Source: Nereocystis luetkeana (taxonomy: Eukaryota > Sar > Phaeophyceae > Laminariales > Laminariaceae). Taken from it: a stretch of DNA of 64,000 nucleotides. Both the position numbers and the translations under genes were made by a program. Shown piece after piece: positions 1 through 64,000 of this stretch. The first letter of the stretch is position 1; every line of letters starts with the position of its first letter. The DNA lies in the NCBI GenBank assembly GCA_031213475.1, contig JARUPZ010000010.1, positions 7,604,776-7,668,775 of the forward strand. The letters are read 5' to 3'. The notes below the pieces were generated by a model. The model had not been told where the DNA came from and ran no database searches. It worked only from the letters and a program-made list of their open reading frames with translations.

Positions 1-1404
1 TGGTACCAGGTGCTCGACTCCGAACGCTAAACGCTAACCCTCAGCTCCTAACCGTCACCCAAACCGCAACCCTCACCGTACCCGTAAATCCCAACCTACC
101 GCCTGACAACCAAATTGTCGGAATGAAGCTGCCCGAGCTTTGGGTTTGTGGAAGCGGAGAGGTCGAGAAATCGCGATTACTCGGCCAACGTAACGCATTT
201 ACGTCGTATGATACGTACGGGATGCAGCTGCTGTTGTTGTATTTCCCCGATAGAAGCCTTCCTCACAACACAACATCACCTATCAATAGTTCGTAGTGCT
301 CTTCCAGGGCGAGAGGTGCAGAGAGAATCGGACAGAGGGTGCAAAGTATCCAAAGCAAAACACCCGAAAGCTTCATCGTTTTCAAGCAGCTGGTTTTGAG
401 TTTTTAGGGACCGTTCCTGATGTTCTCGTGTTTCTGTTCCGAAAAAAACGAAGGAAGGAACGCTTGGACTTGGGCACTCCAGCAGTAGTGAGTACGTCAG
501 CTCGCCAGTCCTCTGTGCTGTCTTGTTCATGCAGACCTGGTACCGCATAATACGACAGCACAGAAGTTGCAGCCCATCCCATCCGGTCAACCGAATGGCT
601 TCCTACAATACCTTCCCGTCCCATTGCCACCCCCAAACTGGAACCTTTTCTCATCCCGTCCCTTGGCAAGACTCTAAACAATTTCCGCCTATATAACGTA
701 TCGGGCGACACCTTGATACCTGGTTTTTGATATTCTCGGGCCTCGAGCTTGCTGCGAACATTTTCGAAGAAAAACGACCAAGCAAACTACTGCAATAGCC
801 TTTCGCTTCGCCCTTTGATTCTTTTGTTAAAAATTAGTGCTATACCTGGCACCAGGTGTGTAATAATCCACACCTCGAAAACACTCAGACAAGCCTTACC
901 TGGCACCTCGGATCTACGTTATGGGGCCTAACACATCGGCTTGGCCACGTCCCAACATGGTGTTAGCACTGGAGAAGAAATCGCGTATCACGGCGACTTG
1001 GTAATTGAAATAGGTGTCCCTGTATCCCTTTTATTTGTTTCGGAGGCGTCGCAGAAAGGAACCGCTCGCCCCTTCTCGCAGAAGAAATCCGGGCGAGGCA
1101 ATAGCTATATCATGATAACAATCTCCATGTGTGTGTTTATCATGCATGACCAGAGATAACCTACTTGATGCAGTAGTCGGGTCCGTCCCATTCTGCCTCG
1201 TCGTATTCTACTGAACTGTAGTGGTGTCACAACCAACCGTGTTATGTACCTTAACCCTTTCAAGCACTGCACTGCTGTACAGAAACTTTCGTCTTACTCT
1301 AATGCCAAGTGGTCTCCAAAACGGGAGTTCACTACAAAAGGGGTTATGTGCAACGTCGTAACTCCGCCCCCCCTGTGTTACCACCACCCCCCCCCCTCCG
1401 ACAG
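1..1404. other. No gene seen; noncoding flank
   Basis: I see no supportable gene here. The stretch holds several copies of the dispersed TACCAGGT/ACCTGGTA motif (positions 4, 536, 714 and 842). At 1252 a TTAACCCTTT sequence resembles the end of the TTAA-flanked MITE found at 53996, but no matching second end is clear. The last 30 bases are a pyrimidine-rich tract ending in CAG at 1402-1404, which looks like a 3' splice site for the lipase exon that follows. Upstream lipase exons are not recognisable. Confidence 0.5.
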
Positions 1405-1938
1405 ATGTGGGATAGTCTAGGCGACGCAATAGATGGACGCACGGATACTCTGCGCGCGATGATTTGGAAACAGCTGAACGCCGGCAACAGGGTGTGGCTG
1501 ACCGGGCACAGCAAGGGCGGGGCTATCGCTACTGCGGCAGCCTCGCGGCTCCTTCTAGGAGACGCGGTAGATGATGCCGCCCTGCCTAACCCCGCCTTGA
1601 GGCGCCCTGAGGACAGACAACTTACGATTCGCTACGGTCCACTGTCGAAGCTGTCCGTGTTTACTTTTAACGCTCCGATGGCGTTTTCGGTGACGCTCGC
1701 GGAGGCGTATGAGGCCAGGTTGGCGGAGGTTGGTGCGGAGCACGTACGGGTCGAGCATAGGGCGGATCGGGTTCGGAAGCTGCCCCCGCTTGCTGAGATG
1801 AGGCATGTCGGGGTGAGACAGCTGATCGGGGAAGGGGTGATGGAAGACACGGGGGTGATGGTCGGTGCGGCGATAGCGGTAGGGGGAGTCGCGGCGGCCT
1901 TGATCGCCATGGCCACGAAGGTGGCTAATAGTCATTGA
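1405..1938 (+). CDS. Class 3 lipase-like protein, terminal exon
   Basis: The reading frame encodes about 177 residues of an alpha/beta-hydrolase of the fungal lipase (class 3) type. The nucleophile elbow reads LTGHSKGGAIA, with the serine about 36 residues into the exon. Further on are VFTFNAPM, where the family has a TF-x-x-P segment after its central strand, and HRADRVRKLPP, matching the usual D-x-V-x-x-LPP around the catalytic aspartate. RHVG follows. The protein ends in a hydrophobic run (VGAAIAVGGVAAALIAMA) that could be a membrane anchor. A poly-C/T tract plus CAG immediately precedes the ATG at 1405, so this is more likely an internal acceptor than the true start. The oxyanion-loop half of the domain must lie in upstream exons that I cannot identify. 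Family assignment is fairly secure; substrate is unknown. Confidence 0.7.
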   Translation: MWDSLGDAIDGRTDTLRAMIWKQLNAGNRVWLTGHSKGGAIATAAASRLLLGDAVDDAALPNPALRRPEDRQLTIRYGPLSKLSVFTFNAPMAFSVTLAEAYEARLAEVGAEHVRVEHRADRVRKLPPLAEMRHVGVRQLIGEGVMEDTGVMVGAAIAVGGVAAALIAMATKVANSH

Positions 1939-2639
1939 TTCGGTGATGAAATTCGGCGAGGTTTTTCACACCGACCAGTCGGTGCGCTGCCAATGATTGG
2001 TTGATGGCTTGCGGCGGCACGTTGACGCATATTGTGAGGGACGATGTCAATTTACTGAAAGACACTTTGATTGGTTCATGCGATGCAGCGTGGTTTTTTC
2101 GTAACGACCAGTCAGAGCGCTGCTGACCTGCTCTCCATAGCGATTTTTTATTTGTGCCCAAACGTTGGCAGATGTAGTGACTGACGGCATCGATTTTTTC
2201 CGCGCGAATTCAGCGGGAAACTGTGAGGGATATTTTTGTGCCACGGTTCTACGACAGTTGTGGCAATATTACTTTTACGGCAGGCACCACCCACCCGCCA
2301 GGCGCCATTTTTTTGGCGAAAAATCGGGGGGAGGTATGGAAGAGCTTATTTTCTTGTTAATATCCGTTTGGTTCGAGGGTTTGATGAACGCTTTGTCTTG
2401 CTGTGCGTGTGGTTCCATGCTTTGGTACTTGCGTCTTTCCGTGTTTGGGCGATGACTGTTTTTTATTTTGCCGAGGGAGGGTTCCTCTTTTGCCCTTCAG
2501 TGTTTAGTAGAGGGGGGGGCGAGCGAATTGTGGGAGTTGTCGACCAAGCGTTTCACTTTCGCCGCGATGTAGAAATTTGTTGATTATGATAGCTTCTGTG
2601 TTATAATAGTCGGTGGCGTAGACCAACTCGAGACTCAAA
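1939..2639. other. No gene seen downstream of the lipase exon
   Basis: Short reading frames here have no recognisable domain. The sequence is T-rich and carries no clear repeat structure. It may include the lipase 3' untranslated region. Confidence 0.4.
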
Positions 2640-3030
2640 ATTACCCTATCACACGGGTGATACAATATCACACACACCCTGGGACGATTTTTTCCGGGTC
2701 GATTTTATCCGAAACAAGGAGGAAACACGAAAACTTGAATGGTGGCTTTTGGAAAGAGGTCGTCGAGATATTCCCGTAGACGCAACCAGCGCTCGGCGTC
2801 AGCACTTTTCCCGTTGTGGGGCAAATCAGCTTCGATTTTCGTCCGAGCGGGGTGTGTTATGTTATCACCCTCGTGCGATAGTGTGAAAATCGTCCGAGCG
2901 GGGTGTGTTATGTTATCACCCTCGTGCGATAGTGTTATACCAGGTACGGCTGTTATCTAGTCACACGTGTGATACGCTATACTATCTAATCACACGTGTG
3001 ATACGTACGGTAGTATCTTATCACACGTAC
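2640..3030 (+). repeat. Dispersed element with TATCAC palindromes (copy 1)
   Basis: A body of about 170 bases (2670-2850) is followed by repeated palindromes of the form TATCACACGTGTGATA (near 2961, 2991 and 3019), with an imperfect one at 2646. The body is recognisably similar to 38385-38565 and, in reverse orientation, to 15950-16080, which also carries the palindrome at its edge. These three places define one dispersed repeat family. No coding potential is evident. Confidence 0.6.
2840..2935 (+). repeat. 45-bp tandem duplication
   Basis: Positions 2840-2884 and 2891-2935 are identical 45-base copies offset by 51 bases, each containing GTTATCACCCTCGTGCGATA. The duplication lies inside the TATCAC-palindrome element. 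Confidence 0.85.
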
Positions 3031-3299
3031 GTGTTATACGGTGGGGTGGTCGGTTTTCTAGACCCTTGGTTGCCGCGCGTCATATGCGGTGGATACTCCT
3101 GCAGCCAAAATGCGCGGCGGCGAATTGTAAACTACACGAACAAAGCGTGCTTTTTTTGGCCTATAATTTGTATCAGGACTGTGAATAGTCTATACATAAC
3201 AGGTACCAGGTATTAAGTAAGTTGGTTGTTTTTTCTTCTGTGGCGGTTGGGGAGTTTGTTCTATTTTTCGTCAACATCTTCTTGTTTTTCCTCATGGAC

Positions 3300-3620: not shown

Positions 3621-4493
3621 GTGTGGGGACATTGCCGGAGGGAAAAGGCCGATGACAGCATCGGCCACACGACGTAGCCCGTGCTGCAGGGGTACGGTTT
3701 TTTGCAACGGGAAGACTACCGTAGAGAGCGAGGACTACCACCGTGAAGAGCGTTGACTTGAATTCGCACAGGGGAGTGATCGCTTTTGATCGCTATTTCA
3801 TAGTTTTCTCGACAACGACGGCAAGGAAGGGCACAGGAATGTTATCACGAGAGGGATGAAACAGGCTAGCTTGTGATGCGGAACACAAGACAGCAGTGGT
3901 ATTCTATGAAGTAGAGCTATTAATACTGATGCGTAACAAAGGAGGATCGGAATATTACAAGAGAGATGAAGTACATACGGTACGTTTAAGCTCGCGGGAG
4001 CACATTTGCAGTATTACACGCAGCTTGAAAATATCAGTTTCGAGGAAATCCTCGATCTCGCAGCTGATGTGTTTTTTACAAAAAAAATATCAAGAGCATG
4101 TCGGCATCCATCGTTTGGGGTCCTTCTGAGGGACACAAATTGCGTGTCAACAAAGCTTGGTCGGACAGGAGACGACTTGAAAAAACATCGCAAACGTATG
4201 ATACGTAGTTAGACACGGAATAATGTTCAGTCACAGCGGCCAGTCAGCAAACCAACCCCGAGTCGACTTTTTCCCACTTTCTGAGGACAGAGGACGCAAA
4301 AAACAACCCACCGACGCCTGCAAGGAAAGCGCCAGAAAAATAAATAGCTTCTCCGAGGATTTTTCCAGGAAAAAAATATACCAGGTATTCCACATTTATT
4401 CGTCTGTTCCATAAACATCCTTCCTCCACGCCCGTCAACAACAACCAACTAACATCGTGGCCGTCACGGTAAGGAGGCATTTTTCAGGACTCT
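3621..4493. other. No gene seen
   Basis: Only short reading frames without recognisable domains. One TACCAGGTA motif lies at 4379-4387 and a TATTAATA motif near 3919. Confidence 0.4.
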
Positions 4494-4799: not shown

Positions 4800-5860
4800 C
4801 GAACAAACGCAGCCCAACGACGAGCTTGAGGCAGAATCTTGGCGTCAAAACAGTATCCGTCCGTTTCACTGCCAGCGCCAATTTTGGCGAGCTAGAAGCA
4901 GAACCTTGGGGGGAAAGATGTAACCGTCCGTTTGAGGCCGGTGTCAACCCCGATGGACTTTAGGCATGAACCTCGCCTCGAAAAAAAACCCTCGGATGTC
5001 AACAACTCTGACGAGCTAGTAATAGAACCTCATGCCAAGATAATCCGCATCGACTACCGCAAGCGTGGAAGCTATTATTACGGGGGGCCATAGTTAACAG
5101 GACCAAATATTGTTTGTAAAAATGGTCGAACATATAGGTTTTTATGTGTACCATAGGTCCTGTTAACTATGGTCCCCCGTAATAGTAGAACCTGGCGTCG
5201 AAAAAGCTGCATGATACATCAAGTGTCAATTCTGACGAGCTAATAACAGCCCTTTAGAACAGTAAGCACATTTTCTTCATGGACTACTTTGAAGTAATGT
5301 GGGCTCATTTTTGCAGTAGTGTAAGTAAGGGTTAGAAGGCAGAACCCAACCCAGGGGGGAAAAATCCGTCAAACGCCGATGTCAACGGTTCTGCCGAGTT
5401 TGAGGCAGAACCTTGCTCGAAAAAAGAAAAAAAACACTTCGTCCTAGCCCCCTGTTACAGCTGCGGAAAACATTCCACACTATCGCCGAGTAGTTTGCCC
5501 CCATCTCATTTTATTTCTTCAAGTTTTAAAGCGATTCAAGCCGGTGTCCATCCGACAAGCTTGACTGAAACCTTGTTTCAAAAAACGAAAAATCGTCGAA
5601 AAGTCGGTGTCAACTCTGGCGGGAGCTTGAGCTACTATTGTAGAACCGCGCGTCAAAAAACAATTCGTCAGAAGCCGGCGTCAATCAACAACTCAGTCAA
5701 GCTACGAACACTCTCGCAGATTTTTGTGACATAAAAAAATCGTGGAAAAAAACAAAGCGGTGTCAGTCAACTCTACGTAGAACCTTGTGCCACAAAAAGT
5801 TTCGCGAAATAAAAACCGCTGTCCATCAACTGTGACGAGCTTGAGCAACGTGGGACCTTC
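4800..5860 (+). repeat. Diverged ~70-100 bp minisatellite
   Basis: Loosely repeating units contain TCAAC..TGACGAGCTTGAGGCAGAACCTTG followed by an A-rich CGAAAAAA segment. At least eight degenerate units can be picked out, for example near 4820, 4880, 5010, 5205, 5380, 5610, 5690 and 5830. A MITE (5076-5184) sits inside the array. Confidence 0.55.
5076..5184. mobile_element. MITE family 1, 109 bp, perfect-ended copy
   Basis: The element is bounded by inverted repeats of about 29 bases starting TATTACGGGGGGCCATAG; the right arm is the complement with one mismatch. Its interior carries GGACCAAATATTGTTTGTAAAAATGG. The outer TA/TA suggests insertion at TA, as for Tc1/mariner-type elements, but that is inference. 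Other copies are at 19429-19551 and 63914-64000 (cut by the window), with a divergent one at 19709-19876. It has no coding capacity. Confidence 0.85.
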
Positions 5861-9480: not shown

Positions 9481-10049
9481 ATAGCACCGTTTTTTTTCGA
9501 GTCTCGCGAATTCAACATAGTATAGGAGCTAGCTCTAATAACCGGTTTCGAAACAAAAATGTGGAAGCTAAGACCGATACGTACACAACATAATAATATA
9601 TACCAGGTATAATATATATTATCCCATTGCCCATTGATAGGTACCCAACCAGTAAATATCGGATCGAACGATTTTGGGAAATCTCCTAGGTCGAGGAACT
9701 GCGTACGTGACAGCTGGTTCACACCTTGGGCAGATCATGATCTGGTCATGACCTAGATCATCTGATAATTTTCTCCAAACAAAAAGGATTTCCAGGACTA
9801 GCCAATTGTAAACGAATACAGAGCTGTTCCGAAGAACACCTGTCAAACCACCAAAGATTAAAGGGACTCGAACTTTTGACCTCAAGCTTGCAAAGCACAC
9901 ACTCTTACCAACTTGAGTATATATGTATATATATATATAATATATATCTCCATAAAGAGGAAGAGTAAACAGAAAGACAACGTACCAGGTCTCAATTATC
10001 AAAATCCATACTGTAAATTAATACTGATGATGCACGACTTATTCCTAAG
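9481..10049. other. No gene seen
   Basis: AT-rich sequence with a (TA)n stretch near 9918-9946, TACCAGGTA at 9601 and TACCAGGT near 9983. No recognisable coding region. Confidence 0.4.
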
Positions 10050-10300
10050 GCATCAGGTACAGTTCCTCACCTGCAGTTGCGAGAGATTGCGCAGGATCTA
10101 TCTGTACAGTGCAGACCCAACCCAGGGAGCACTTGGTACAGTAGATCGTGCAGATCGTACGGCTGCCACCCAGCAACATGAGCTACAGATCACACAGATC
10201 GAAAACCTAGATCACGAATGGAAATCGATTATCCACAGTAGATAGATACCAGGTAGATAGATAGATCATGATCTGTCCGAGGCGTGAGATATTTCCCCTA
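10050..10300. repeat. GATCTG-rich repeat segment
   Basis: Words such as CAGATCACACAGATCG, GTAGATCGTGCAGATC and ATCATGATCTGTCCG link this segment to 3300-3620 and 7310-8420. Confidence 0.5.
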
Positions 10301-10624: not shown

Positions 10625-11817
10625 GATATAGTTGGCAATGCACGAGAAAAAGGCCCTAGGGGTGGCCCATTTTTCGATACGACTGCTACGACTGCTGCTG
10701 CAGTGTTGTTAACACGACGATCGAAAAAAACGGCCTTAACCTAACAAAGTCAAACTACCGTAGTTGATAACCCATGCGTTGATTTATGACGCCGCTCTGA
10801 CCAGGAATACAAGGTCCGCTTGATGTTCACACACGAAGTACTGGTGTACTTTCATTGACAACAAAAATACACACTCCGAGCCATAGACGCCCCAGTCAGA
10901 TACAAGTAGGCAGAGAAAAGTTGGCAAATTGCGACAAGAAGAGTCAGTTTTTTGGTCAGCTACAGTAGTCGGCTTAACCCCGCCAAAACGACAAACCGGG
11001 AAGCCCACCGAACTCACAGCCCTCCCCAACACACCCAAAACCTGCTCATGCACTTGATAAACGCAACGCCCAAGCACCCAAAAAGGTCAGAGGCATCGAG
11101 AAGAGGAATGAGCAATAGCCGAAAATGAGAATGCCATACGAAACTACGTACCAGGTACTACAGTAAAAACGCCCCCCAAAAACGAAAAAAGTGTCAATGC
11201 ATGAAAATGAGCTCCGTCACAACGGCCAGCACCCACGTGTTTAAAGGGAAAATACTTGGATTTACTGCAGTGACAGTTTTTTTTGCAGCAGTACAAGGGT
11301 TAAGAAACGGCAACAACGAAAACGAAAACAAAGCCACCTCACATGGCCTCTATAATACCAATTTGTATAGACGGAAAGGATCGTCTATACATTTCCATCA
11401 TACGATAGCCGTCCGGCGTGGTGCACGGTAGCTAATTACGAGCGAAGCAAGTAGCTATTAATACTAACTTTACATGGCCGCCTAAAAAAACAGGGCAGCA
11501 TAGGGCATACATATATAGGACATGCGAAGATATGACATGCCTTACAGGGCAAGCCTTGTGAGGCATGCCTCATAGGGCATATGCCTCTGAGGGCATGCCG
11601 TATGGGACATGCTACCGACCTTATCCGACCCGACCCGCGAGTTTGGATCTCACCTGTGAACAGCTCCGGAAAAAACGCGTTTTTCCTCCGACGAAACCGT
11701 TTTTCTTGGGTTTTTTTTTTACTGCCTTCCGCCAGGTATATACTATCCTGGTACACAGATAACGACAGACACTAACATTCTGCAATAATACCCACCAGCG
11801 TCAGTTTCTGTTCCGGG

Positions 11818-12055: not shown

Positions 12056-12150
12056 AAACAGCAAATTATGCCGAAAAAACGAAACAAAACCGCTGTCTGA
12101 TCTCTGCTTACAGTTTTTTTTACTACCTGATACCTGGTATTCTTTCTAAC

Positions 12151-16194: not shown

Positions 16195-17530
16195 TGCCAG
16201 GAATATAATACCGCGATAAAGTGGGACCCCGCGGTAGACGGTATACCGCGGTTTTTTCGGGTGGTTCGCTACCGCGGTACATACCGGGGACCACGCATAA
16301 TAAGTAGTTTCTAGTGTGCAGTACTGCGTGCCAGTACCAGATATCGTATTGCCTCTGCGGTAACTGTTGCGTATTGCAGTAGCCTATTGGTCGGAAACAA
16401 TAGGTGAATACTCGTAGGAGCCCTCCACGACGTGCGCCGGTAGCCGTGGCTCTACATCAGTATTTTACTGCGTCACAGTTGAAGACCTTGTTGTGGTGAG
16501 ACGTTGTACGTGTAAAAAAATTGTAAATGAGAGTGCAGCAATACTCTCATGTACCGAGTATCAGCTCGCAGATGGTTTTGAGACATATTCAAGAGGCCAG
16601 AGTCCGGCTGGAAACACACATGCCGCCGCCGCGCTGTCAGCTGCGTGCGTGTGTCCTTCGCTTCGAACCATTATTTTGTCGTGAGCTCAAGCTTTATTTA
16701 TATCAATACGCCGGAGGATGAACAAAAAAAAACAAAAACACCCGTCGACATTCAGCCACTTAGTGTCCGGGCTGATTTTTCGCCGCCCAAGTGCCATGAA
16801 GGCGCCCGTCGCATCCCTCCCAACTTCGGGGCCATCGGGAGCCTTTTTTCGGAGTTATGTCCGGAATCTCGTACAGTTCCCCTGGTGCACATGACATCGT
16901 GTGTACCTGGTATGATACACCTCCACTGCTCGCACGGTAGGGACTATTGCTCGTGTGGTAGGGCTACTGCTGCTGCTGCTGCTGCGAGGGGCGATCACAC
17001 CTTGATGGTGAATATTTACGGAGGTGTTGTGCTTGGCGCCTCACGCCGACCCTCCGACCCGCGAACCTCATGGCTGTGGTCAGCGCTTGGATGCTGTGTT
17101 TGGGAGACTCTAGGTTGACTCGGCCGGCATGGATACCGTGCTTGGAAAGACTCTATAGGTTTAGGGTGAATCCGGATGATGTGGCTGGGACAAAAACTTC
17201 AGGTTGATTGAGCAGCAAATGATGCACCCATAGCCAATCAGCGTTCCTGAATAGCTACGTAGCTACCTCAAGATTAACAATCGACCCTTGACTTCTACTG
17301 GCTGCTGCGCGCCGCTGTTGCTTCGGGCACGTTTTGCACCGTTGTGGAGGCGTGTGTACCGCGGTGAATATATATGTATAGGTTGGGGACGGCGATAACA
17401 GATAAAACGAGCCCGGCCCCTCCTTAACCGCGGTGCTAGAGGGGTCGACGTCGTGACAAAGCATATTTCCCCGCCGAGAAGTGGGGCCCCGCGATATATC
17501 GAACCGCGGTAGATAGGGACCTCGACTGTA
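16195..17530. other. Intergenic, with a cluster of ACCGCGGT palindromes
   Basis: No gene is supported. The palindrome ACCGCGGT or CCGCGG recurs near 16223, 16243, 16271, 17357, 17428 and 17507, often beside GTGGGACCCCGCG-type text. Reading frames in between show no domains. A short (GCT)n run lies near 16967. Confidence 0.45.
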
Positions 17531-19428: not shown

Positions 19429-19551
19429 TATTACGGGGGGGCATATTAAATAGGACCAAATATTGCCAGTAAAAATGGCGAAATAGATACCTGGTACCTG
19501 GTCTGTTTTTGTCTGTACCGTAGGTTCTATTTAATATGGCCCCCCGTAATA
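19429..19551. mobile_element. MITE family 1, second copy with TACCTGGTA insert
   Basis: Inverted ends TATTACGGGGG... and ...CCCCCGTAATA match the 5076 copy. The interior keeps AGGACCAAATATTG and AAAAATGG. Relative to the 5076 copy, the loop contains an extra ATACCTGGTACCTGGT segment. Confidence 0.8.
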
Positions 19552-19708: not shown

Positions 19709-19876
19709 GGTACGGGGGACCATAGTGTGAAAATAGGATCTACAAGGTACCTGGTATGGTACGAGTATACCAGGTGGACGAAAAACTATACCATGGTACC
19801 AGGTATATTTCCCATCTTTACTATAAATAACAATATTTGGTCCTACCAGGTATTTACTACTGCTGTGGTCCCCGTA
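19709..19876. mobile_element. MITE family 1-like, diverged
   Basis: Ends TACGGGGGACCATAG and GTGGTCCCCGTA are inverted. AACAATATTTGGTCC near the right end is the family-1 internal word. Several TACCAGGTA/TACCTGGTA motifs lie inside, making it longer than the other copies. Confidence 0.5.
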
Positions 19877-45586: not shown

Positions 45587-46716
45587 TAGAGCAGTTGCCT
45601 TATCATCGACACTCCCAATTGTACCAGGCGGTGGGGGGTAAGTTTGGTTATCTCCCTATTGAGGTCCGCTCGGAGACCGGGGTCTGCCATCAACCGTTGT
45701 AGATTAATAGCTCGTTTTCCGCTGCCTGCTTTTACCCTCCGATTCGGCGCGAACCGACCCAAGAGGCGAATATTGCAGACCACGAGGTTGTGGTCAGATT
45801 CATGCCGATCCTCTGGGGGTTTCCGTACTGTCATGTTGCGGACCAGGCGTCGATCAACTTGCCGAGTAAGGATGTAGTCTAGCCTACACTGACCCTTCCC
45901 GGAGTTTGGAGATTGGAAAGTGTACGACACTCCGCGAGTAGGTGTGGCAAAGAACGTGTTGAGGAGCGCAAGCCTGTTGTCATCTGCGAGGAGGAGTAGT
46001 CGCTCTCCGTTGTTGTTCAATTCATCGCGCCCGTATTTACCCATCACCTTACTGCCGGCACATCCGCTCTCTCGCTTGCCGGTGCGAGCATTTGCATCCA
46101 AGAGTACAAGTAGGTGATCCCCACTTGGGACCCCCGAGACGACTTTGTTCAGTTCGTTCCAGAAGTGATCTTTCTCGCGAACGGGTGCATCCAGTATCGG
46201 CGCATAGCCGACAACAAAAGAAACAGCATTTGATTTGCCCTCAAGTTGAATGCGAACTTTCATCAGTCTGGCACTAACGCACTCCACCTCGAGACCATCC
46301 TTGCCCACACCTGCCACAATAGACTCCCTGACAGCTAGTCCTACACCATGGGTGCCCTTCCTCTCGTATTTGCTGCCGTCTGCTCCAGAGCAAAAAATCG
46401 TGGATCCAGCTGCTGTGAACGTGCTATGCCCGTCTCGCCTAGTCTCTTGGAGACCTACGACATCGCATCCTAGTTCCTGGCATACCTTCATGATGACCTC
46501 GCTGTGGCCGATGCCATTTTTGCCGTTGAAGGCGAGTGTGCGAACATTGAACGTGCCCACGACGAGTTCCCCAGCTCTGTACCTAGCCCTAGCATCTGAG
46601 CGTAACCTTCGAGCTTCTCTGCGACCTTTCCGACCTTGCCTCCTCTTCTTCCGTGCAGCGTGTTTTTTCTCCTCTACCCTCCGCTTTTCCCAGGCGGTGG
46701 GTTTCTTCCGTTCCAT
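45586..46716 (-). CDS. LINE apurinic-type endonuclease domain
   Basis: The endonuclease/exonuclease/phosphatase fold is shown by GTFNVRTL, GLQETRRDG, VVGYAP, LLVLLDANARTG, CRLDYILTR and ESDHNLVV, covering the expected Asn, Glu, Asp-x-Asn, Asp and SDH catalytic positions. A highly basic N-terminus starts at MERKKPTAWEKRRVEEKKH (ATG at 46716). The frame is open up to 47139, but that upstream part looks non-coding. Near 45635 the frame slips by one base in a C-rich run, and the following segment (SVDDKATALVQTVLSTAAKL) is open in the RT frame. So one frameshift separates the endonuclease from the RT. Confidence 0.8.
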   Translation of the reverse strand: MERKKPTAWEKRRVEEKKHAARKKRRQGRKGRREARRLRSDARARYRAGELVVGTFNVRTLAFNGKNGIGHSEVIMKVCQELGCDVVGLQETRRDGHSTFTAAGSTIFCSGADGSKYERKGTHGVGLAVRESIVAGVGKDGLEVECVSARLMKVRIQLEGKSNAVSFVVGYAPILDAPVREKDHFWNELNKVVSGVPSGDHLLVLLDANARTGKRESGCAGSKVMGKYGRDELNNNGERLLLLADDNRLALLNTFFATPTRGVSYTFQSPNSGKGQCRLDYILTRQVDRRLVRNMTVRKPPEDRHESDHNLVVCNIRLLGRFAPNRRVKAGSGKRAINLQRLMADPGLRADLNREITKLTPHRLVQLGVSMIRQLL

Positions 46717-47139
46717 GTTTTTTCGCCCGGCCCGGTTCGTGCCGAGGTTCCGACGTGCTGGGGGCAGCAATCCCAACGCGCCTCGACGCCCATCATCTCC
46801 TAGATGACGTCGAATGGGGTATACATACGTAACTCTTGCAACTCTTGCAGCTCGCTCAGACCTATGCCAATGGGAACGCGAAGTTGAAAAGTTTTTTTTC
46901 AAATATATGGCTTTAAAAAAATAGCCGAATTTTTTCTCGTACCGCCGCTGTGGGGAAAAAAGAGAAAAATGTTTGATTTTTTCTTTTTTTTCCCCCAATG
47001 GCTGCAGGCGGCGCAATTTGTGTTTTTCTGGTGGCAAATTGTCAACACGGTGATCGAAACCAGCTCGTGCGACCATCGACCCTCGATCTCGACATAGACT
47101 CAGCCCACGGCCAACCCACTCGGTATCTGGCAAGCCCAA

Positions 47140-47686
47140 CGAGTATAGATGACGGCCTCGAAGATATCAGGCGGATCCATGATCTAGGGGGCGAGAGCTT
47201 GCCGGCGGCGTCGTACGGTATCCTCCCAAACCTGAAAAAAAGACTATTTTTGCCATTCGAGACGGATGGAGAAGTTTTACTTCTTTTGTTTTGCGCAAAC
47301 CAGCGGCCAAATGTTCTTTTATCACACGCCTGGTCAGCTCCCGCCACATGACACCGGCCATGGTGTGAAGACGATGACCCTAGGGTGGGTCGGAGCCCCT
47401 AACGAGCGCACTCCGTTCAGAATTCGTGACGCAATCGTTGATTTTGTTGATCGATGTCTGTCGAGGACTCGGAATCTCGCCGCTTCGAACCAAAGATCGG
47501 CCTGAGTCAGATTTGCTTTTTTCGGGCTTTTCCAAAAGTTAGGAACTTTTTTTTTTTTTTAGGTGGCCCATAGGAAGCGTGTTCTGAATTTTTTTGGCGG
47601 GTATCTTTGAAATTTAAACTTTTTATTGCAACTTCGCTGTACCATTGGCATAGGTCTCAGCCAGTGCGGATTCGATACAGGATACA
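47140..47686. other. Unassigned, possibly LINE 5' region
   Basis: No recognised domain. It contains several T-rich runs. It may hold the LINE 5' untranslated region or older insertions. Confidence 0.4.
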
Positions 47687-49434: not shown

Positions 49435-51059
49435 CCTGTCCGAGGGGCCAGGAGGCTGTTACTCCGCAAGGTAGGCTGTTGTTGGCTGTTGGTGCAACCT
49501 TGATTTTTGGACGTTGACGTTGATTTTTCTGATGCGGGATGCAGCGGACGAGCCTGCAGTAGGTGCTGGCAGATAGGTTCAGGGTGAACCCGGGTAAAAG
49601 GCGGCGGACTCGCGAGCCTTCCACGAGTAAAGGCTCGTACCTAGAAGAGGATCGAAAATCCCAAAAGAGAGACGCCGCGAACGAGTGTCATCCTGTTTCA
49701 TTTTTGGTTTTTCGTTTTGGTCGTTCAGGTGCTCTACTCTGTATGAAGGGGGTCTATGATAGGGAGGAGGGGGGACAACAACGAAACTTGGTGGATAACC
49801 CTGAATCTGTCTGGTCCGAGCGCTCTTTTGCTCGTGCTCTGTCTTGCCTGGAAAAGCGACCGACGACACAAACAGTGCCCACCACCACCGAATCGCACTA
49901 TGCCGAAGCGAAAAGTGAAAGAGGTATGCATGGCTGACAGCGTTCTGGACAAGGTTTTCGCTATACTGCTGTATACTGACGATAGATAGACCGAGCAAGA
50001 CATACATTTGATCCTGCCATGCATGATAAATACCAGTATCTACCAGTAGGTTGCTGTGCCCTCTGGCCAGAGGGCAGGGCGACACCGGCGATCAGGATTG
50101 TAATGGCGGGTATCGCTCCACTGGTGAGAACTGACTGCAACACGCTACTGCTGCACGCTACTGCTGTGTTGTTATCTCCACGCTTAACGCCCCCTGCTGC
50201 ACGTCGAGTGTCCATACCTCCTGCCATATTGTTCGCTGTAATAAGGGTTGGGGTTGGCACAATTTCAAATATCAACCTGCTTTTGAAAAAGCACTTCGAT
50301 CAGCCTCGATCATACAACAAGACAAATTCGCACAAAGTACCGGTATCTAACCCCAACACCCAACAGCAGACCAACAGCAGCAGTACTGGTACAAGGTACA
50401 GGTACTACTGCTGTACTCGTACACAAGGCTCCCCTCCGGGAGGTGCCTAGTGCCTAGGGGAGTGGCGCAATACTCGTACGAGTATACACCTGGTACACGT
50501 TATTAACACTACTACCTGGTAGTACAGTAGTAGCTGCACTGCTATGTCACGTACAGCAATATAGATATACAAGGCGCTTCGCTCCTCGGGCGGCCTACGC
50601 CGCCCGCTACGCTCGCTCTGGAAGGAAAAAGGTACATCAAGCTATGCGACGCGGCCAGGAGGTCGAAATTGAATATACCAGGTATGCAGCAGTATTTTAA
50701 TATTAATAGTAGTTTTTTATGATTGTTGTATTAATAGTTGCAAACTGGCGACCTGATAATGCCAAGAGTCCCGCCGCCATGCGTCAGGAGAAAACAGCTC
50801 GGACGCCGCATACTCTTTCATCGCGTCTCGAGGCACACACGACGCCTAGCCACGAAAACAGCGACCGCGCTCCTCGCAACCCCCCCTCTACCCGCCAGCA
50901 TCCGCTGACACCCGCGACGACGCCGGGCCCTCCCGCGGGGCGGTGCTCCGACCACACGCACGCACACGATACAAGAAAAAAGGAATAAACAACTGCAAGT
51001 GCAAAAGAAACTTCAACGAGCCGGTGAAAAAAACAGGGCTTTTCGCGGGTGAGGTCAAA
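49435..51059. other. No gene; region upstream of the helicase
   Basis: The helicase promoter should lie in the first few hundred bases, but I see no defined element. Further on are TACCTGGTA motifs near 50489 and 50512, TACCAGGTA near 50687, and a hairpin GGGCGGCCTACGCCGCCC near 50599. No coding domain recognised. Confidence 0.45.
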
Positions 51060-53075
51060 CCTCACGGGTCGGGTCGGGTCAGACCCGCGATTTTTTTGAG
51101 GTGTGTTGACCTGACCCGACCCGACCCGCGAGATTTTGAAATCCTCTTGACCCGACCGGACCCGACCCGCGAGATTTAAAAACCCCTTGTCCCGACCCGA
51201 CCCGACCCGTGAGATTTCAAAACCCGTTGACCCGACCCGACCCGACCCGCGAGGTTTTTAACACTTCCTGACCCGACCCGACCCGACCCGCCATTTTCCG
51301 ATTGACCCGTGGGACACGGGTTTCGCGCGGGTCGGGTCAACTGGACCCATGGCATATCTCACGGGTCAACGACGAAAGCTCACGGGTCCAAAGATATAAA
51401 CGTTGGTACGTTGGTCGGTTGGATGGTTCTTGGTCTCTTGTGCTTTTCCTAAAATGTCGTACGTTTGTGTTTGTTTTTTTCGTTTTTTGTTTTTTTTTGG
51501 AGCATTGTGTGGTGTGCGCTTCAAAAAAGACCGTGATGATGAGATAGATCATGACGTGGAGAAAGGCACGCACCCGCACTCTGCCGGGCGGATACCTCCC
51601 GGCCCCTGGGTCGACCCTATACCTCTGACCCGATGGCCTTTGCTGGCGCCCCGGCGAGCGACCTAGCTGTGCAGCCTCCAGCAGCAAGCACTGAAGCGGT
51701 GGATCTGACAGCGGGGGCCACGATCCGCGAGGATCCGGGGCCTGCTGCTGCTACTGCTGCTGCTACTGCCGCGACGAGCGCGGGCTTCCTACACTGCTGT
51801 CATGTCTTGTCTTCATTGTTGCACCCTGCATGAGAGTGTGGCCGTTTTTGTTTGTGGAAATGGATGGACGTGAACATGAACACAATAATATACTTCTGTA
51901 CGGCTTCATCCGACCTGGGATTCGCGTGTGATTATTCTACACGCTATGATATATCCTCTCGGAGGTTTAGGTATCGGCACGAGAGAAGCCTTTGGGCGGG
52001 AAACGGCGAGTATTTTGTATTGTACAATGTCGGACCCGTGGGCCAGACCCGGGGGTCACAAAGGCGGCATTTCGGCAGGTAGCTGCACACGTAAAATACT
52101 GATTCGTGGGCCAGACCCGCGGGTCGGACGTACGGGTCAGCCGGAAAAAACTTCGCGGGTCATGATGACCTGACCCGCGAATGACCCGTATCTCACGGGT
52201 CATGGCCCAACCCGACCCGTGACATTTTTAACCCCTCCAGCTGACCCGACCCGACCCGAGAAATGTTTGAGGCATATTGACTTGACCCGACCCGACCCGC
52301 GAGATTTTGAAAGCCTCTTGACCCGACCCGACCCGACCCGTGAGATTTGAAAATCTCCTGACCCGACCCGACCCGACCCGACCCGCGAGATTTCAAAACT
52401 TCCTGACCCGGCCCGACCCGACCCGCCACCTTCCGTTTGACCCGTGAGACACGGGTTTCATGCGGGTCGGGTCACCTTAACCCGCGAGACCATTTATCTT
52501 GACCCGCAGGTTCGACCCGCGGATGTGGCCCATGGGTCGGGACTTCAAAAACCATTTAGTGTTCATTTCAGTGCCTCGCAGCGATATATAACCTGGCTGT
52601 AGTGGGTATAGATGGATGCGGGCATGCGTATACGAATTTGACGGTGTTTTAAGGTTTGAATGTGATACCAAAGGAGTATTATGGAGTATTGGTACGAGAG
52701 AAGCCGTTGGGTAAGAGAGCGGGAAATGATTCAAATGTTGGATCCGCGAGCCGAATGCGCGGGTCCGACCCGCGGGTCCGTAGAAAACAACACGCGGGTT
52801 ATGCTGGCCCGACCCGCGAGTGACCCGCTTCTCGCGGGTCGTGACCTGACCCGACCCGTGAGATTTTCATCACCTCTTGACCCGATCCGACCCGACCCGT
52901 GAGATTTGAAAAACTCTTGGCCCGACCTGACCCGACCCACGAGATTTGAAAACCTCTTGACCCGACCCGACCCGTGAGATTTTGAACACTTCCTGACCCG
53001 ACCCGACCCGACCCGTGACATTTTGAATACCACGTGACCCGACCCGTGGGTCGGGTTATGACCCGCGAAAAGCCC
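51060..53075. repeat. ACCCG minisatellite arrays with two core segments
   Basis: Arrays of about 45-50-base units, GACCCGACCCGACCCG then TGAGATTTTGAAAACCTCTT with variants, occupy 51060-51370, 52020-52540 and 52740-53075. Between them, related core segments appear at about 51850-52020 and 52560-52740 (GATGGATG..., GGTACGAGAGAAGCC-TTGGG). A third core-plus-array occurs at 61985-62760. This looks like a composite repeat element rather than simple expansion. The stretch 51371-51850 shows no gene. Confidence 0.8.
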
Positions 53076-55761: not shown

Positions 55762-58700
55762 GTGCGAGTATTCGCCATGGAGGGCGTGGCGTCCAACAAC
55801 ACTCAGACAGTTATCGAGAATTGCCCGGTGTTCGCCGGCAGGAACAAGGATACTTTCCACGAATACAAGACCAAGCTTCGCGTCTGCCTTTCGCTCTACA
55901 GCAAACCCGTCTTCGAGGTGTTTCAAGGCAAGCTCCAGCCGTCATCTAGACTGGGCAGCGCCGGCACATCGTCGCTTAATGCCATTGCTGAGCGGACATG
56001 GATTCAAGCGAACCAAGATCTCTGGAGTGTGCTACTCCTCACCACATCCGGCTCCGCCAACAACACCATTAAAAGGTTTGAGGGCAAGCGGCCAGAAGAT
56101 GGAACGGGGCACGGACAGGCAGCGTGGAAAGCTCTCACTGAAAAATACAACGGCCACACTAAGGAGGCCAGAAGAGCGTGCCATGAGAAGCTCGTCAGCA
56201 CCAAGATGGAGCCCGGGCAAGATCCGGACGACTTCTTTTTCGTCCTAGACGAATGCCGTGACCTACTCCAGGAAATGGGCCAGACGGTCCACGACGAGGA
56301 CATTATTTTACGTGCTCTTCCCATTGAATACGAGAGAGTACTAACCGCCAGCTACGAGAGGCGGGATTTTGGTTTGGACGACATCCGGCACATGGTACAC
56401 ACCATGTATGTCGACAACCTTTCGCGCCCTTCCAGCATCAAGCCGGTCGCAGGTCGTGGCATCGCCATGCAGGTGGCAGGACACAACGGTAGGGACGTGC
56501 AGTGCACCTACTGCAAAGGAGTCGGACACACCATACAAGACTGTGCCGTCTTGAAAGACAAGGAGCACCGGCGTGGGTCAAATCAATGGGGCCAACAAAT
56601 TCAACGACCACAGCACGCGTCTCGCCACGCGAAAGAAGCACCCGGAAACGGGAGGAGAGGGGGCGATGGAAAGCAGTGGTGTTCTTTCCATAAGTCCACA
56701 ACACACAGCGACGCAGATTGCCGTATGCAGCATCAACAACGCAGCAACAGTGCAAACAACGGGAGCGCGAATTATGTCGCTTTTTATGACCCCAACCACC
56801 CTATCTCATTTTCCGCGGTGGAAGCGCCCGTGGAGGAGGAAGCTTTCTGGCCTTTCGGGCCAAAAGATGAATCAGTCGACTCCAGCGGGCTGTTTGGATC
56901 CTTCGGCGGTATCAGCGGAGAAGAGACTAACGGATCGGCCTTCATGATCGAGGAAGGACCAGTCCAGAAACTGCAGCTTCGAGGCCGCATCGTCGGGATT
57001 TTGGCTGCGATCACCCGTGCTCTAGTGATGGTGGCCATATTTCACTATCTGTGGCTCCTATTCGGTGACTCCCGTTATGCCCGCATGGTCTCGACGAACA
57101 CCAATGGGCAGCCCGAAATGCTTAAGGGAATCACCCGTACGGAGAAAGGATCGGCTCTCACGGCTGGTCCTACCGCGGGGTGGCAAGCCCACTGCAGCAA
57201 CACGTTCGTGAATATGCTGGTGGACAGTGGCGCGTCTGGACACTATTTCGATGATGCTATCATCCCCAGACTGCGTGACAGGTTGAAGAACTTCAAGGTC
57301 TTGGATATGCCGAAAGCAATCTCAACCGCCGGGGGGGGAGAATTGATTGGTACAGCGCAGGGGCTTCTCCGGGGTTACGTAACCGACGACAAAGGAGTAC
57401 AGCGTTTAGTCCAACTTTCATGTCTGGTTGTGCCCGGCCTAGGGCGTAACCTGTTCTCGGTAAAACAAGCGGCTCGAAGCGGTGTCGTATCAATTTTTGG
57501 CAGGAACACCCCAAGGCTGGAGACAGACACCTTCACACTTCCACTTCAAGAGCTGGGGTCCGATCTCTACTCTTTCTCGCTGGATCTTGAGGACGAGATC
57601 GACAGGCCGGGGCTGGCAATGCAGGCTGCGGCTAGTGCCAACTTGTGGCATCGGAGACTAGGGCATCTCAATCGCAAGAGCCTAGATCTCCTGAAGAACC
57701 TGGACAACAACGGGGTGAGCTTCGACGGGACCGTTCCAGACTGCGACGTGTGTGCGGTCGGAAAGAGTCACCAGCTAGCTCACCCGAAGACGGCTGATCA
57801 TAAAGCCAAGCTCCCTTTCCAGCTGGTTTTCGTAGACCTGATGGGGCCTTTAACGCCAGAAGCACTCGGAGGTTACAAGTACGTCACCAAGATCTCCGAC
57901 GAGTACACCAAGTGGACGGAGACCTATCTGATGAAGTCCAAGCACGACGCTCTCAGCTCGTTTCAGATGTTCGTACTGTCTGTGGTGATCCCCAGTGGTT
58001 TCCGTGTGGAGCGTTTAAGGGCTGACAAAGGGGGCGAGTTCACCGGCAAGGAGTTCCAGAACTACTGTCTCCAGACGGGGGTATCACTAGAATTCGCCAG
58101 CACCAACTCGCCGCAGCAAATCGGTATGTCCGAGCGTGTTGGAAGAACTCTCGCAGCTATGGTGCGGTGCATGCTCGCCGATAGCCGGCTGCCAAAATTT
58201 CTCTGGGGAGAATTGATGTTTACGGCGGCGTTCCTGGGGAACAGGGCGCCACATTCTGCGATTGGCATGCAGTCCCCGTACAAGATGCTGCACGGAGCAG
58301 AGCCGGATCTTCGGCTTCTTCGAGTCATTGGTGCCAGGGCCTTCGTCCACATCGAGACGTACTCGAAAAAACTCGAGCTCAAGGCGGTAGAAGGGCGACT
58401 AGTGGGATACAGCAACAACAGCAAGAGTTATCGCGTCTACAATCCAGTCACCAGGCGCATCATGGAGAGCAGAAACGTCATTTTCATCGAGACCCCATCA
58501 CGACTCCTTCCGCCATCATCGGATCTAGCCCATAAGCAGATTTTTCCGTCGAGCAACGGGATGGATACCCACAATTACACCACAGACAATGACTTTCTGC
58601 GGGATATTCGCGATTACACTGCAGTGTTGGAACCCCTTACCAGTCCTTCTGGGGACCACATCGCCGCAGGTGGGCTCTCAGTGAACCCACCGGTGGCCGA

Positions 58701-59997
58701 ACTCTTGGACCGAATCAGCGACATCACCCGGAGGGACATACTGGACGGAGGAGCCGTAAGATCACCGTACGAGGGTTTTGTGTCCGGGGGAGCGTCGCTG
58801 GAGAGCGTCCTGGGCAGTGTGCAAGTTGGAGCATCACCAAAGGTAGCTCCGCAGGAGAGCGTTTTCGAGCAGCTGGAGCAGCCAGTATCACCTGGTGGAG
58901 CCTCCCTGGAGTCATCGCCGGCTGCATCATCGCCTCTCCAACAGGAGGGGTATTCGTGGTTGGAAGCGACGCCTGCGGTTACGCGTGCTGGTACTGCAGC
59001 AAAATCCTTTGTGAAGCGTAACACCAACAGCCGTTCAAATTCTGCCCATCTAGCAACAATTGTCACCAGGTCCGCTCTGTCTGAGCTTCGAGGACTGAAG
59101 CTCTACACCAAGATGACTCTGCCAGATATTGCGCACGAGACATACGCAGAAGACTCAGCCGTGGAGTACGCCTATGTCGCGACTAACGTTCGAAACTGTT
59201 CGGCGGGGGAGAATGTGGAAATAATCCCGAACACTTTCAAAGAAGCCATGACTTTACCGGCCAAGGCGCAGTGGAAGGCGGCCTCAGACAAGGAAGTGGC
59301 AAGTCTAAAAAGGAACAACGTCTACACCCTCTTGCCGATGACTGCTGTCCCCACAGAACACAAGATTATCGGCAGTCGATGGGTCTATAAAGTCAAGGCC
59401 GACAACTCACACAAGGGACGCGTTGTTGTACTTGGGTGGGGTCAGTTACCTGGTGTTGATTGCGGCAGTACGTTTGCCCCCGTTTGCAGACTTCAGAGCA
59501 TCCGCATGGTGCTAGCGATAGCGGCGGATTACAATCTGGAGTGCTGGCAGCTAGATTACAACACCGCGTTTCTGAATGCGGATGTCACGGAAGAAGTATA
59601 TGTCAAGATGGCACCCGGATACGAAGAGTTCGACCAAAACGGAGTTCCAATGGTCATGAGACTTCTTAAAAGCTTATACGGCCTTCGCCAGAGCCCAACC
59701 AACTGGTGGAACACAATCGACGGACATCTGGTGGAAATCGGCTTTAAAAGCCTCAAGTCGGACCCGTGTGTCTACACCTACTCGGAGAGCGGCGGCATCA
59801 ACATCCTAACCCTGTACGTTGACGATGTTCTACTGCTTGGAAAAGACCTGACCGTACTCAGGCGGATCAAGCAGAAGCTGATGAGCCGTTTCTCAATGAC
59901 GGACATGGGAGACGTGTCGCTCGTACTCGGGATGGGCGTCACCCGTGATCGTGAGAAGGATCCGCCTGAATACGGCCAGGTCTTTTCCAAGCAGTAG
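55762..59997 (+). CDS. Ty1/copia Gag-Pol, truncated after RT
   Basis: A 1411-codon polyprotein. The Gag part carries a zinc knuckle CTYCKGVGHTIQDC (residues 248-261). A hydrophobic stretch (ILAAITRALVMVAIFHYLWL, about 413-432) is unusual for this position. Protease motif MLVDSGASGHYF is near 486. The GAG-pre-integrase segment has LWHRRLGHLNRKSLDLL and CDVCAVGKSHQ. The integrase core has D692 (FVDLMG), D755 (RADKGGEF) and E791, a D-D-35-E spacing. The copia RT has VYKVKAD, LDYNTAFLNADVTEEVYVKM, LLKSLYGLRQSP and YVDD at 1352-1355. The frame ends soon after MGVTRD, where an inverted duplicate of the RT begins. RNase H and the 3' LTR are missing. Otherwise intact, so the deletion looks recent. 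Confidence 0.92.
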   Translation: MRVFAMEGVASNNTQTVIENCPVFAGRNKDTFHEYKTKLRVCLSLYSKPVFEVFQGKLQPSSRLGSAGTSSLNAIAERTWIQANQDLWSVLLLTTSGSANNTIKRFEGKRPEDGTGHGQAAWKALTEKYNGHTKEARRACHEKLVSTKMEPGQDPDDFFFVLDECRDLLQEMGQTVHDEDIILRALPIEYERVLTASYERRDFGLDDIRHMVHTMYVDNLSRPSSIKPVAGRGIAMQVAGHNGRDVQCTYCKGVGHTIQDCAVLKDKEHRRGSNQWGQQIQRPQHASRHAKEAPGNGRRGGDGKQWCSFHKSTTHSDADCRMQHQQRSNSANNGSANYVAFYDPNHPISFSAVEAPVEEEAFWPFGPKDESVDSSGLFGSFGGISGEETNGSAFMIEEGPVQKLQLRGRIVGILAAITRALVMVAIFHYLWLLFGDSRYARMVSTNTNGQPEMLKGITRTEKGSALTAGPTAGWQAHCSNTFVNMLVDSGASGHYFDDAIIPRLRDRLKNFKVLDMPKAISTAGGGELIGTAQGLLRGYVTDDKGVQRLVQLSCLVVPGLGRNLFSVKQAARSGVVSIFGRNTPRLETDTFTLPLQELGSDLYSFSLDLEDEIDRPGLAMQAAASANLWHRRLGHLNRKSLDLLKNLDNNGVSFDGTVPDCDVCAVGKSHQLAHPKTADHKAKLPFQLVFVDLMGPLTPEALGGYKYVTKISDEYTKWTETYLMKSKHDALSSFQMFVLSVVIPSGFRVERLRADKGGEFTGKEFQNYCLQTGVSLEFASTNSPQQIGMSERVGRTLAAMVRCMLADSRLPKFLWGELMFTAAFLGNRAPHSAIGMQSPYKMLHGAEPDLRLLRVIGARAFVHIETYSKKLELKAVEGRLVGYSNNSKSYRVYNPVTRRIMESRNVIFIETPSRLLPPSSDLAHKQIFPSSNGMDTHNYTTDNDFLRDIRDYTAVLEPLTSPSGDHIAAGGLSVNPPVAELLDRISDITRRDILDGGAVRSPYEGFVSGGASLESVLGSVQVGASPKVAPQESVFEQLEQPVSPGGASLESSPAASSPLQQEGYSWLEATPAVTRAGTAAKSFVKRNTNSRSNSAHLATIVTRSALSELRGLKLYTKMTLPDIAHETYAEDSAVEYAYVATNVRNCSAGENVEIIPNTFKEAMTLPAKAQWKAASDKEVASLKRNNVYTLLPMTAVPTEHKIIGSRWVYKVKADNSHKGRVVVLGWGQLPGVDCGSTFAPVCRLQSIRMVLAIAADYNLECWQLDYNTAFLNADVTEEVYVKMAPGYEEFDQNGVPMVMRLLKSLYGLRQSPTNWWNTIDGHLVEIGFKSLKSDPCVYTYSESGGINILTLYVDDVLLLGKDLTVLRRIKQKLMSRFSMTDMGDVSLVLGMGVTRDREKDPPEYGQVFSKQ

Positions 59998-61984: not shown

Positions 61985-62760
61985 TTGATTTCAACCCCGC
62001 CTGTTCGCGGATCAGGTCACACCTCACGGGTCCGGTCGGGTCAAGTCAGTGACCCGACCGGACCCGCGAGATTTTGGAAGCCTCCTGACCCGACCCGACC
62101 CGTGAGATTTGAAAACTTCCATACCCGACCCGATCCGACCCGCCAGATTTGAAAACCTCTTGAGACGACCCGACCCGACCCGTGAGATTTCGAACACCTC
62201 CTAACCCGACCCGACCCGTGAGATTTCGAACACCTCCTGACCCGACCCGACCCGCCAGATTCCGATTGACCCGTGAGATACGGATCTGTCGCGTGTCGGG
62301 TCACCTCAACCCGCGAGACCATTTATCTCGACCCGCGGATCCGGTCCGTGGGTAGACACTTTCGAAAGCAATTTAAACTTCGTTTTGGTACCCCACACCC
62401 CACAGTGATCTGTGGATCTGTGGCCTGGCTGTAGTGAGCATGGATGGATGCGGACATGCGTATACCATGTTATACATTCGGCGGTGTGTTATTTTTAGAT
62501 TTTATTATACCAAAGAAGGATTATTTAGTGTTGGTACGAGAGCAGCCTTTGGGCAGAAAGCGGGGAGTTTTTGAAGTATCAGATCCGCGGGCGGATGCGC
62601 GGGTCCGACCCGCGGGTCGGCAGAAAACAACTCGCGGGTCATGTTGGCTCGGCCCGTGAGGTTTTCATCATCTCTTGACCCAATTCGATACTACCCGTGA
62701 AAGTTTGAGCACTTCCTGACCCGATCCGCGGGTCGGGTCGTGACCCGCGAACAGCCCAGG
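61985..62760. repeat. ACCCG minisatellite with core segment
   Basis: The array 61995-62345 has units GACCCGACCCGACCCG with TGAGATTTGAAAACCTC. The core 62400-62590 has GTGGCCTGGCTGTAGTGAGC, GATGGATGCGGACATGCGTA and GGTACGAGAGCAGCCTTTGG. A second short array ends near 62755. Same layout as 52200-53075. Confidence 0.8.
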
Positions 62761-63913
62761 GTTGTAAGGGTTGCCAGCCCGCCGAGAATGTCAACTGTTG
62801 GGAAACCTCCAAGCCTCCAAGGACGACACTACGTACCCGTACTGCTTCCAGGAACACCGCCGCTTCTACTAAAATCTCAAATAGTGGGAAACGAAAACAA
62901 ATTGGGGTGATTTATCAATCCAATTTTAAAAAAAGCGTTTTGAAACTGAATTTTAGAATCGTCGATTTTTTTTCAGTTTTCTTTTTGTCGCCGATTTTGG
63001 CCCGCAAGACTTTGGATCAATCTCCGAGTATCGGTTGGTCACTGGTGGAAAGGGCTCGGCTTCCCTCCAAGGAGCTTCTAGGATTGTTCGCTTCGAAATC
63101 CACCACAGCATGTTCAAGGTCATTCGAGCAACTGGTCCTGTTCGGTGCTGGACTGATTTGTACCACAAAATGTACCGAAAAGGGCAACAGCAGCAGTATT
63201 ATCCCTGGAAAGTAGCTGGGATTTCAACACGCACACGAAAAAGAGCCAATTCGGATACATCTCAAAACTGTGCCGATTTCTCAGCGGAAATCTAGTATTA
63301 ATAGTAGGAAGCTCCGTCGAGAAATGCTGGAGTGTTCACTATTTCTAGACCACATTGAGACGTCTTCCGAGCCAAAATCGGCGATAAGGTGCAAAAAATG
63401 GTATTCGCGCCGAACGATTTTGGTTTCTCACCAGATTCGGCCTTACTCTGTTGATACGCGTCATATTCATACGCACAAAGGTTTACCTAAAACTTGGAAG
63501 ACCGCGGGACAGCTCCGTCCGAACGTTATTTTCCATCGCCTTTTATCGCGCTAGCGCTGATACCCAATCACTCTTGTTTTTACACTTCGTATACTCGTAC
63601 AGCGTTTTTTATTTTGTATCGGTAAAAATCGAAAAAGTCCATGTTTTGATGCAGAATCACGTATCATACATACGTACCATGTTCCTGGTGCAAAAAAGTT
63701 GAAATATAAATAACTGCTGTGATGCATCGCCAGACCAAACCGCCTCTTTGTTTTCGGTCTCGCTTACGACTTGCCATAAACCGGGTACATGGTTCACAGT
63801 AGGAGCTGAAATTGGTGCCTGCTCATACCGCACGACTGCCCAACCTGAAAAAAAATATTCAACAGTAGTACGAGATTCGCTTATCACTTGTTCTACAGGA
63901 AGTGTTACCATAG
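62761..63913. other. No gene seen
   Basis: A frame at 63035-63295 has weakly protein-like text (RFEIHHSMFKVIRATGPVRC) but no family. A TATTAATAG motif lies near 63297. Confidence 0.35.
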
Positions 63914-64000
63914 TACTACGGGGGGCCATAGTTAACAGGACCAAATATTGTTAGTAAAAATGGTTAAACATATAGGTTTTTATGTATACGATACGTCCTG
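63914..64000. mobile_element. MITE family 1, cut by window end
   Basis: TACTACGGGGGGCCATAG, GTTAACAGGACCAAATATTG and TAAAAATGGTTAAACATATAGG follow the 5076 copy closely. The right inverted repeat runs off the window. Confidence 0.8.

Follow-up and report, generated by a model that had tools for sequence, protein, structure and literature searches.

A dispersed TACCWGGTA motif in the brown alga Nereocystis luetkeana as a probable excision footprint of a Tc1/mariner-type element

The DNA considered here (in the following, the window) is a stretch of 64,000 nucleotides from the brown alga Nereocystis luetkeana (assembly GCA_031213475.1, contig JARUPZ010000010.1, positions 7,604,776 to 7,668,775). 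It harbours several long open frames, a broken transposase-like gene, two retroelements, copies of two families of miniature inverted-repeat transposable elements (MITEs), here named MITE-S and MITE-A, and numerous copies of the near-palindromic 9-mer TACCWGGTA (W = A/T). We will refer to the latter as scars, since we consider it probable (at about 0.8) that they are excision footprints of a small element of the Tc1/mariner type, the likely source being the Stowaway-like MITE-S family.

Abundance and distribution of the motif

An earlier examination of the window (the original prediction) had put the 8-mer TACCAGGT/ACCTGGTA at more than 35 copies where about two would be expected, and our count of 39 (22 + 17) versus 2.2 under an order-3 Markov model bears this out. 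Under the same model 0.5 copies of the full 9-mer TACCAGGTA/TACCTGGTA are expected and 32 (18 + 14) are present. Across the whole genome (465 Mb in 1987 contigs) the 9-mer reaches 182,395 copies (91,240 + 91,155), or about one per 2.5 kb, while the pattern read backwards, our genome-wide control, yields 1,744 (861 + 883). Similarly, 112 sites versus 2.2 expected were found in a 264-kb sample composed of the window and 20 pieces of 10 kb, the positions of which were picked regardless of the motif. A 282-kb sample of 27 stretches, i.e. these 264 kb and six additional loci, five of them fetched for holding the motif, contains 125 sites. Forms with one mismatch are likewise in excess in this larger sample (134 versus 59 expected); if the whole of this excess were decay, the mean divergence of the scars would, by our rough figure, be of the order of 7%.

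The distribution within the window is uneven, with 30 of the 32 scars lying in the first 39 kb. Single scars, all of them exact matches to the 9-mer, occur on the forward strand (TACCAGGTA) at 2938..2946, 3204..3212, 4379..4387, 9601..9609, 10247..10255, 11149..11157, 19797..19805, 19844..19852, 22114..22122, 22128..22136, 22618..22626, 31052..31060, 32403..32411, 33663..33671, 38585..38593 and 50676..50684, and on the reverse strand (TACCTGGTA) at 12131..12139, 16904..16912, 19488..19496, 19748..19756, 30476..30484, 31626..31634, 31685..31693, 35148..35156, 38206..38214, 38993..39001 and 50513..50521. The scar at 10247 lies within a GATA microsatellite and reads as CCAGGTA inserted behind one repeat TA, the one at 12131 lies where a long open frame ends, and beside the one at 19488 there is, at 19495, a second copy in decayed form (TACCTGGTC). 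The doubling of the motif noted in the original prediction is evident in a reverse-strand double scar (TACCTGGTACCTGGTA, 18554..18569, units at 18554 and 18561) and in a triple scar of mixed orientation (TACCAGGTACCAGGTACCTGGTA, 22006..22028, units at 22006 and 22013 on the forward and at 22020 on the reverse strand). All 14 example positions given there are real: ten are exact, 31051, 32402 and 38586 are off by one, and 50687 is off by 11 (true position 50676).

Two gaps in the right-hand part of the window, 24.8 kb in total, are free of scars, for which a uniform rate gives a probability of 4e-6, the gaps having been selected post hoc after the data were seen. They hold a LINE-type (long interspersed nuclear element) retroelement at 43205..47166, whose minus strand carries frames for a reverse transcriptase and an endonuclease, and a copia-type long terminal repeat (LTR) retrotransposon at 55762..59997, which contains a long open frame. 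Scar-free gaps of this kind are to be expected if the two insertions are younger than most scars. Scars are also scarce in the long open frames of the window, where 12.75 kb (seven of nine frames, two overlapping ones being excluded) contain one scar, that at 12131, versus 6.4 expected.

Gain and loss of the scar and its candidate source

When the 282 kb were compared with themselves and the clean small indels between repeat copies catalogued, 822 distinct events were obtained, 33 of them of length 7. Twelve of these 33 seven-base insertions are flanked by TA, and all twelve consist of CCWGG plus TA; they fall at nine distinct places, as repeat positions are shared by L026:1827, L028:8890 and (in reverse) L028:7860, and by L028:1547 and 9217. 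The partner copy has a lone TA in eleven cases and one scar instead of two in the remaining case (L018:1268). The TA-flanked inserts of six bases comprise TTAA (four of seven) and CTCG (one of seven), those of five bases comprise CWG (two of seven), and the others of lengths different from seven are of mixed sequence. The motif thus behaves as a five-base insert accompanied by a second TA, and a scarred site is seven bases longer than an empty one. Both TAs are kept with bases between them, as in Tc1/mariner footprints, here in the form TA-CCWGG-TA, and the match to CCA suggests that these bases derive from the ends of MITE-S. The window scar at 22618 is also absent from two related copies on contig C33, which we excluded from the clean empty-site count on account of an additional small indel at the site.

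The original prediction had named genome-wide counts near expectation, or conservation without gain or loss, as outcomes that would speak against a short mobile motif without known counterpart; the counts are far above the reversed control and the motif is gained and lost between repeat copies. That it is dispersed, near-palindromic and variable in presence stands, but the 9-mer itself is probably not mobile and is best interpreted as what remains after a larger TA-targeting element has departed; such footprints are known from Stowaway and mariner elements (PMC1925063, PMC4561436).

The MITE-S family consists of elements of about 84 bp with the ends CCACTCYGTCCC next to TA. Its copy in the window (17848..17931, 84 bp including both flanking TA) has the ends CCACTATATCC and, in reverse complement, CCACGCTTGCC, which are diverged from CCACTCYGTCCC. 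In a search that demanded TA at the ends, the loci examined contain 11 inward-facing end pairs, of which nine measure 79-89 bp and another 63 bp, while the last, of 170 bp, spans a neighbouring copy; in the unselected 264 kb, where TA was not demanded, a TA nevertheless stands before each of the four exact 12-base ends. These are short elements with terminal inverted repeats, the repeats being imperfect and about 14 bp long. With the terminal sequence of plant Stowaway elements (CTCCCTCCGT, or CTCCCTCCGTCCC) the ends have the CTCCGTCCC block in common but not the first bases, and the family is therefore named Stowaway-like rather than Stowaway. Genome-wide, TACCACTCYGT (Y = C/T) has 3,515 copies (control 835) and TACCACTCCNTCCC has 166 (control 27). 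A single TA at what may be an empty site was seen once (L059 versus L015, at 73% identity). L050 and L051, being copies of L049, were left out when MITE-S elements were counted.

A footprint of the observed form would arise in three steps. The element would insert at a TA, which would be duplicated to give TA-element-TA (a TA at both ends is what is seen); staggered cuts a few bases inside its ends would then leave CCA on one side and its complement on the other; and end joining would keep 3 + 2 bases, CCA+GG or CC+TGG, either of which gives TA-CCWGG-TA. CCWGG is thus the product predicted from the MITE-S ends. The source would be MITE-S together with whatever transposase moves it, possibly in several families or generations with the first three end bases in common, and we infer that it was MITE-S rather than a lost relative. 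As the mark of each departure outlasts the element, scars would accumulate to the observed density of roughly one in every 2.5 kb.

MITE-A and the word TATTAATA served as an internal control pair. The ends of MITE-A are TTACGGGGGACCATAG, and the window contains one copy at 5076..5184 (105 bp plus TA on either side, ends TTACGGGGG) and a second at 19429..19551 (119 bp plus TA on either side). Thirteen end pairs are listed, ten of them of 105-112 bp, while those of 182 and 220 bp have one end in common; 11 of the 13 are bounded by TA on both sides in a search that did not demand it. Two end bases from each side, if joined, would give TA-TT-AA-TA, i.e. the predicted footprint TATTAATA, and this word, flanked by TAC...GTA, occurs 57 times versus 1.5 expected (282 kb, order-2 model). 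In the same comparison, further TA-N(3 or 4)-TA words stand above expectation, among them TACGAGTA (58 versus 9.2) and TACAGTA (93 versus 38). The TA-N-TA word TACCAGGGTA is also in excess, and additional families may have left these three as their footprints. The pairing of MITE-A with TATTAATA suggests that the method generalises beyond the CCWGG scar.

The two families were also matched to the two scars by their flanks. The flank profile of the CCWGG scar is a better fit than the TTAA profile for 23 of 30 MITE-S ends, and the profile of the TATTAATA scar is the better fit for 34 of 43 MITE-A ends, with flanks deduplicated by sequence and the left and right flank of one site counted separately. 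Among 10,000 random TA samples, 2 (MITE-S) and 0 (MITE-A) reached the matched scores, versus 8,873 and 5,923 for the crossed pairings; these figures are to be read with the caveat that some scars lie within copies of one repeat, that a few MITE-S ends adjoin scars, and that 20 regions, chosen from 100 places among the matches listed, supplied many of the MITE-S ends.

The surroundings of the scars are themselves rich in TA at particular distances. Of 98 isolated sites, 26 have TA at -7/-6 and 24 have it at +6/+7, compared with 8 to 14 at the offsets -12 to -8; TA is frequent nearby too (27 at +1, 21 at +3, 19 at -2). Almost no site has T at -1 (2%) or A at +1 (5%). Genome-wide, 56,011 of the 182,395 scars have a TA at -7 and 26,178 at -8, and 23 of 100 among the matches listed with TA at -7 are themselves scars. 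For MITE-S ends the respective numbers are 719 and 532, the latter being a spacing control that repeated contexts push upwards (they account for 60 of 100 among the matches listed) and that hence understates the preference for -7. A symmetric, TA-centred preference is what a transposase dimer would be expected to leave. In addition, MITE-S is found nested in scars: at L058 one of its ends begins at a scar's right TA (the opposite end is not clear), and at L065 an element finishes at the left TA of one. TACCWGG directly precedes the MITE-S end in 11 of 100 among the matches listed (of the 719 with TA at -7, L058 included), versus 0.76% expected from the TAs of the genome directly behind TACCWGG; as these ends were preselected for TA at -7, the fair figure is smaller, and scaling to all 719 gives about 79 of 3,515 MITE-S ends (2%), about three times chance.

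Doubled scars, parent elements and rival explanations

Adjacent scars are over-represented, with 11 pairs among the 125 sites of the 282 kb, about ten times the roughly one pair estimated from the share of TAs that lie in scars. The doubling may in part be due to elements that inserted at the TA of a scar already present. More tentatively, scars could breed scars: TA-N5-TA resembles the preferred target and might draw the next insertions, which would lead to self-seeding clusters and to a tally of jumps far above the number of elements ever present, a possibility we hold to be doubtful.

Several results weigh against an origin of the scars from MITE-S-like elements. If nested excisions were independent of one another, same-orientation and inverted doubles should be about equally numerous, but the observed ratios are 9 to 2 (282 kb), 8 to 1 (unselected 264 kb) and 19 to 4 (among the matches listed genome-wide, where five of the 19 stand behind the common 7-mer TATCAGG and are perhaps copies of one repeat), so that tandem duplication may contribute. 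Full MITE-S elements are few, the 264 kb holding three (in the window, L011 and L014) beside 112 scars, and the fill-in footprint TACCATGGTA is rare (four strand-counts, i.e. two sites). In no case among 21 sites, nor among 22 elements (a small sample), does one copy carry an element where another has a clean scar. The 21 sites belong to the repeat context TRCTGGCA plus scar, which has 33 genome matches versus about 11 expected by our own estimate and of which 20 stretches covering 21 of the 33 sites were inspected; one site lay within the repeat and was not a clean excision. Finally, a profile search for DDE_3 gave no match, and DDE_1 of the pogo type gave 28, among which the six loci fetched show neither paired CCWGG ends nor MITE-S-like ends.

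Pogo-type transposases were accordingly rejected as the parent on the ends of these six of the 28 matches, and other candidates fared no better. The broken transposase-like gene of the window (22401..24050), with WSSCHD and FHCEINPIELVW motifs, contains the scar at 22618, outside the seven long open frames; its 285-amino-acid frame has no Pfam match, nor do its distant relatives with long open frames on contigs C34 and C1 (L034, L036) above the cut-off, and with few relatives and ends that do not match it was dismissed as the parent. Half-site clustering and inverted-repeat scans found no family with TACCWGG... ends. A 2.9-kb CCACTCCGTCCC end pair on contig C1 was discarded as an autonomous element, with ends that diverge past the first 14 bases and short frames between them. 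Among the other features seen are a short element with inverted ends TAACCCYTTTAGAACCGC (L012:9097-9191 and L019:3887-3981), possibly piggyBac-like given its TTAA plus CCCT ends, and GACCCGACCCG-rich repeat arrays with units of about 36-45 bp at window positions 51106..53046 and 62050..62265, of which similar stretches occur in L011, L022 and L030.

Alternatively, the scars could be footprints left by a different element with TA as its target, rare or extinct today, with ends beginning CCAGG or CCTGG and a 5-base overhang, MITE-S being a bystander with a similar target taste. CCWGG would then result from this overhang, mismatched (A.A) at its centre, and would resemble a lengthened Sleeping Beauty footprint; the far greater number of scars than of MITE-S copies would also find an explanation. 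No element with such ends was found in the 282 kb, where 123 of the 373 TACCWGG are half-sites and no terminal family recurs among them, the sole shared set (L019 twice, L020) being alike outside the end as well, whereas MITE-S fits the flank profile of the scars and sits inside them. We regard this alternative as unlikely.

The near-palindromic, dense and dispersed nature of the motif would equally suit a conserved functional sequence, either protein-binding or a highly iterated palindrome like HIP1, maintained by selection or drive. The presence or absence of an exact 7-base unit beside TA between repeat copies largely contradicts this explanation, and the motif is missing from the 24.8 kb with the LINE and the copia element and shows the excess of one-mismatch forms that decay would give, all of which makes it very improbable. 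Just as improbable is that telomerase or slippage adds (TACCAGG)n at breaks, as a 7-base tandem or telomere-like repeat, in spite of the period-7 doubles and their mostly uniform orientation. Of the four contig ends examined, three consist of TTAGGG arrays and one is not telomeric, so that the telomere unit differs and an origin by telomerase is ruled out; besides, most copies are single, inverted neighbours occur, and the flank preference is symmetric. Slippage may nevertheless lie behind part of the doubles, although as the main source of the scars such a repeat is contradicted.

Known footprints and significance of the scars

The canonical footprint of Sleeping Beauty is TACWGTA. Like it, the scar of N. 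luetkeana has two TAs enclosing a nearly palindromic insert whose central base may be A or T, but this insert has five bases (CCWGG) instead of three (CWG). Footprints of Stowaway and mariner elements usually retain end bases between the TAs (PMC4561436, PMC1925063, PMC3660474). In grasses, Stowaway footprints include TACT...AGTA and the 3+2 form TACTC...AGTA, and the scar is like these MITE footprints (from Triticeae, and from rice 14T32 in yeast) with regard to the TA on both sides, the few end bases between and the 3+2 form (PMC1925063). Unlike the several footprint types described at one intron in that study (PMC1925063), a single type is present here 182,395 times. In rice, excision is often accompanied by deletions or filler (PMC4423477). 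In another brown alga, Ectocarpus, Mariner-Tc1 elements have been reported with almost 12,000 copies, mostly non-autonomous, and the main text of that study mentions neither 'footprint' nor 'excision' (PMC12477816).

While footprints as such are known, a single uniform scar every ~2.5 kb is unusual, and among the matches listed from open PubMed Central (PMC) papers we found no report of a TACCWGGTA scar or of one footprint type at such density. Cut-and-paste elements are usually counted by their remaining copies. If our interpretation is true, a uniform scar would let past departures be counted and dated, and the number of jumps, the choice of targets and the outcome of repair would become measurable from one genome. 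The scars would, moreover, represent a steady supply of 7-base insertions, which are frameshifts in coding DNA, as well as a trap for motif finders.

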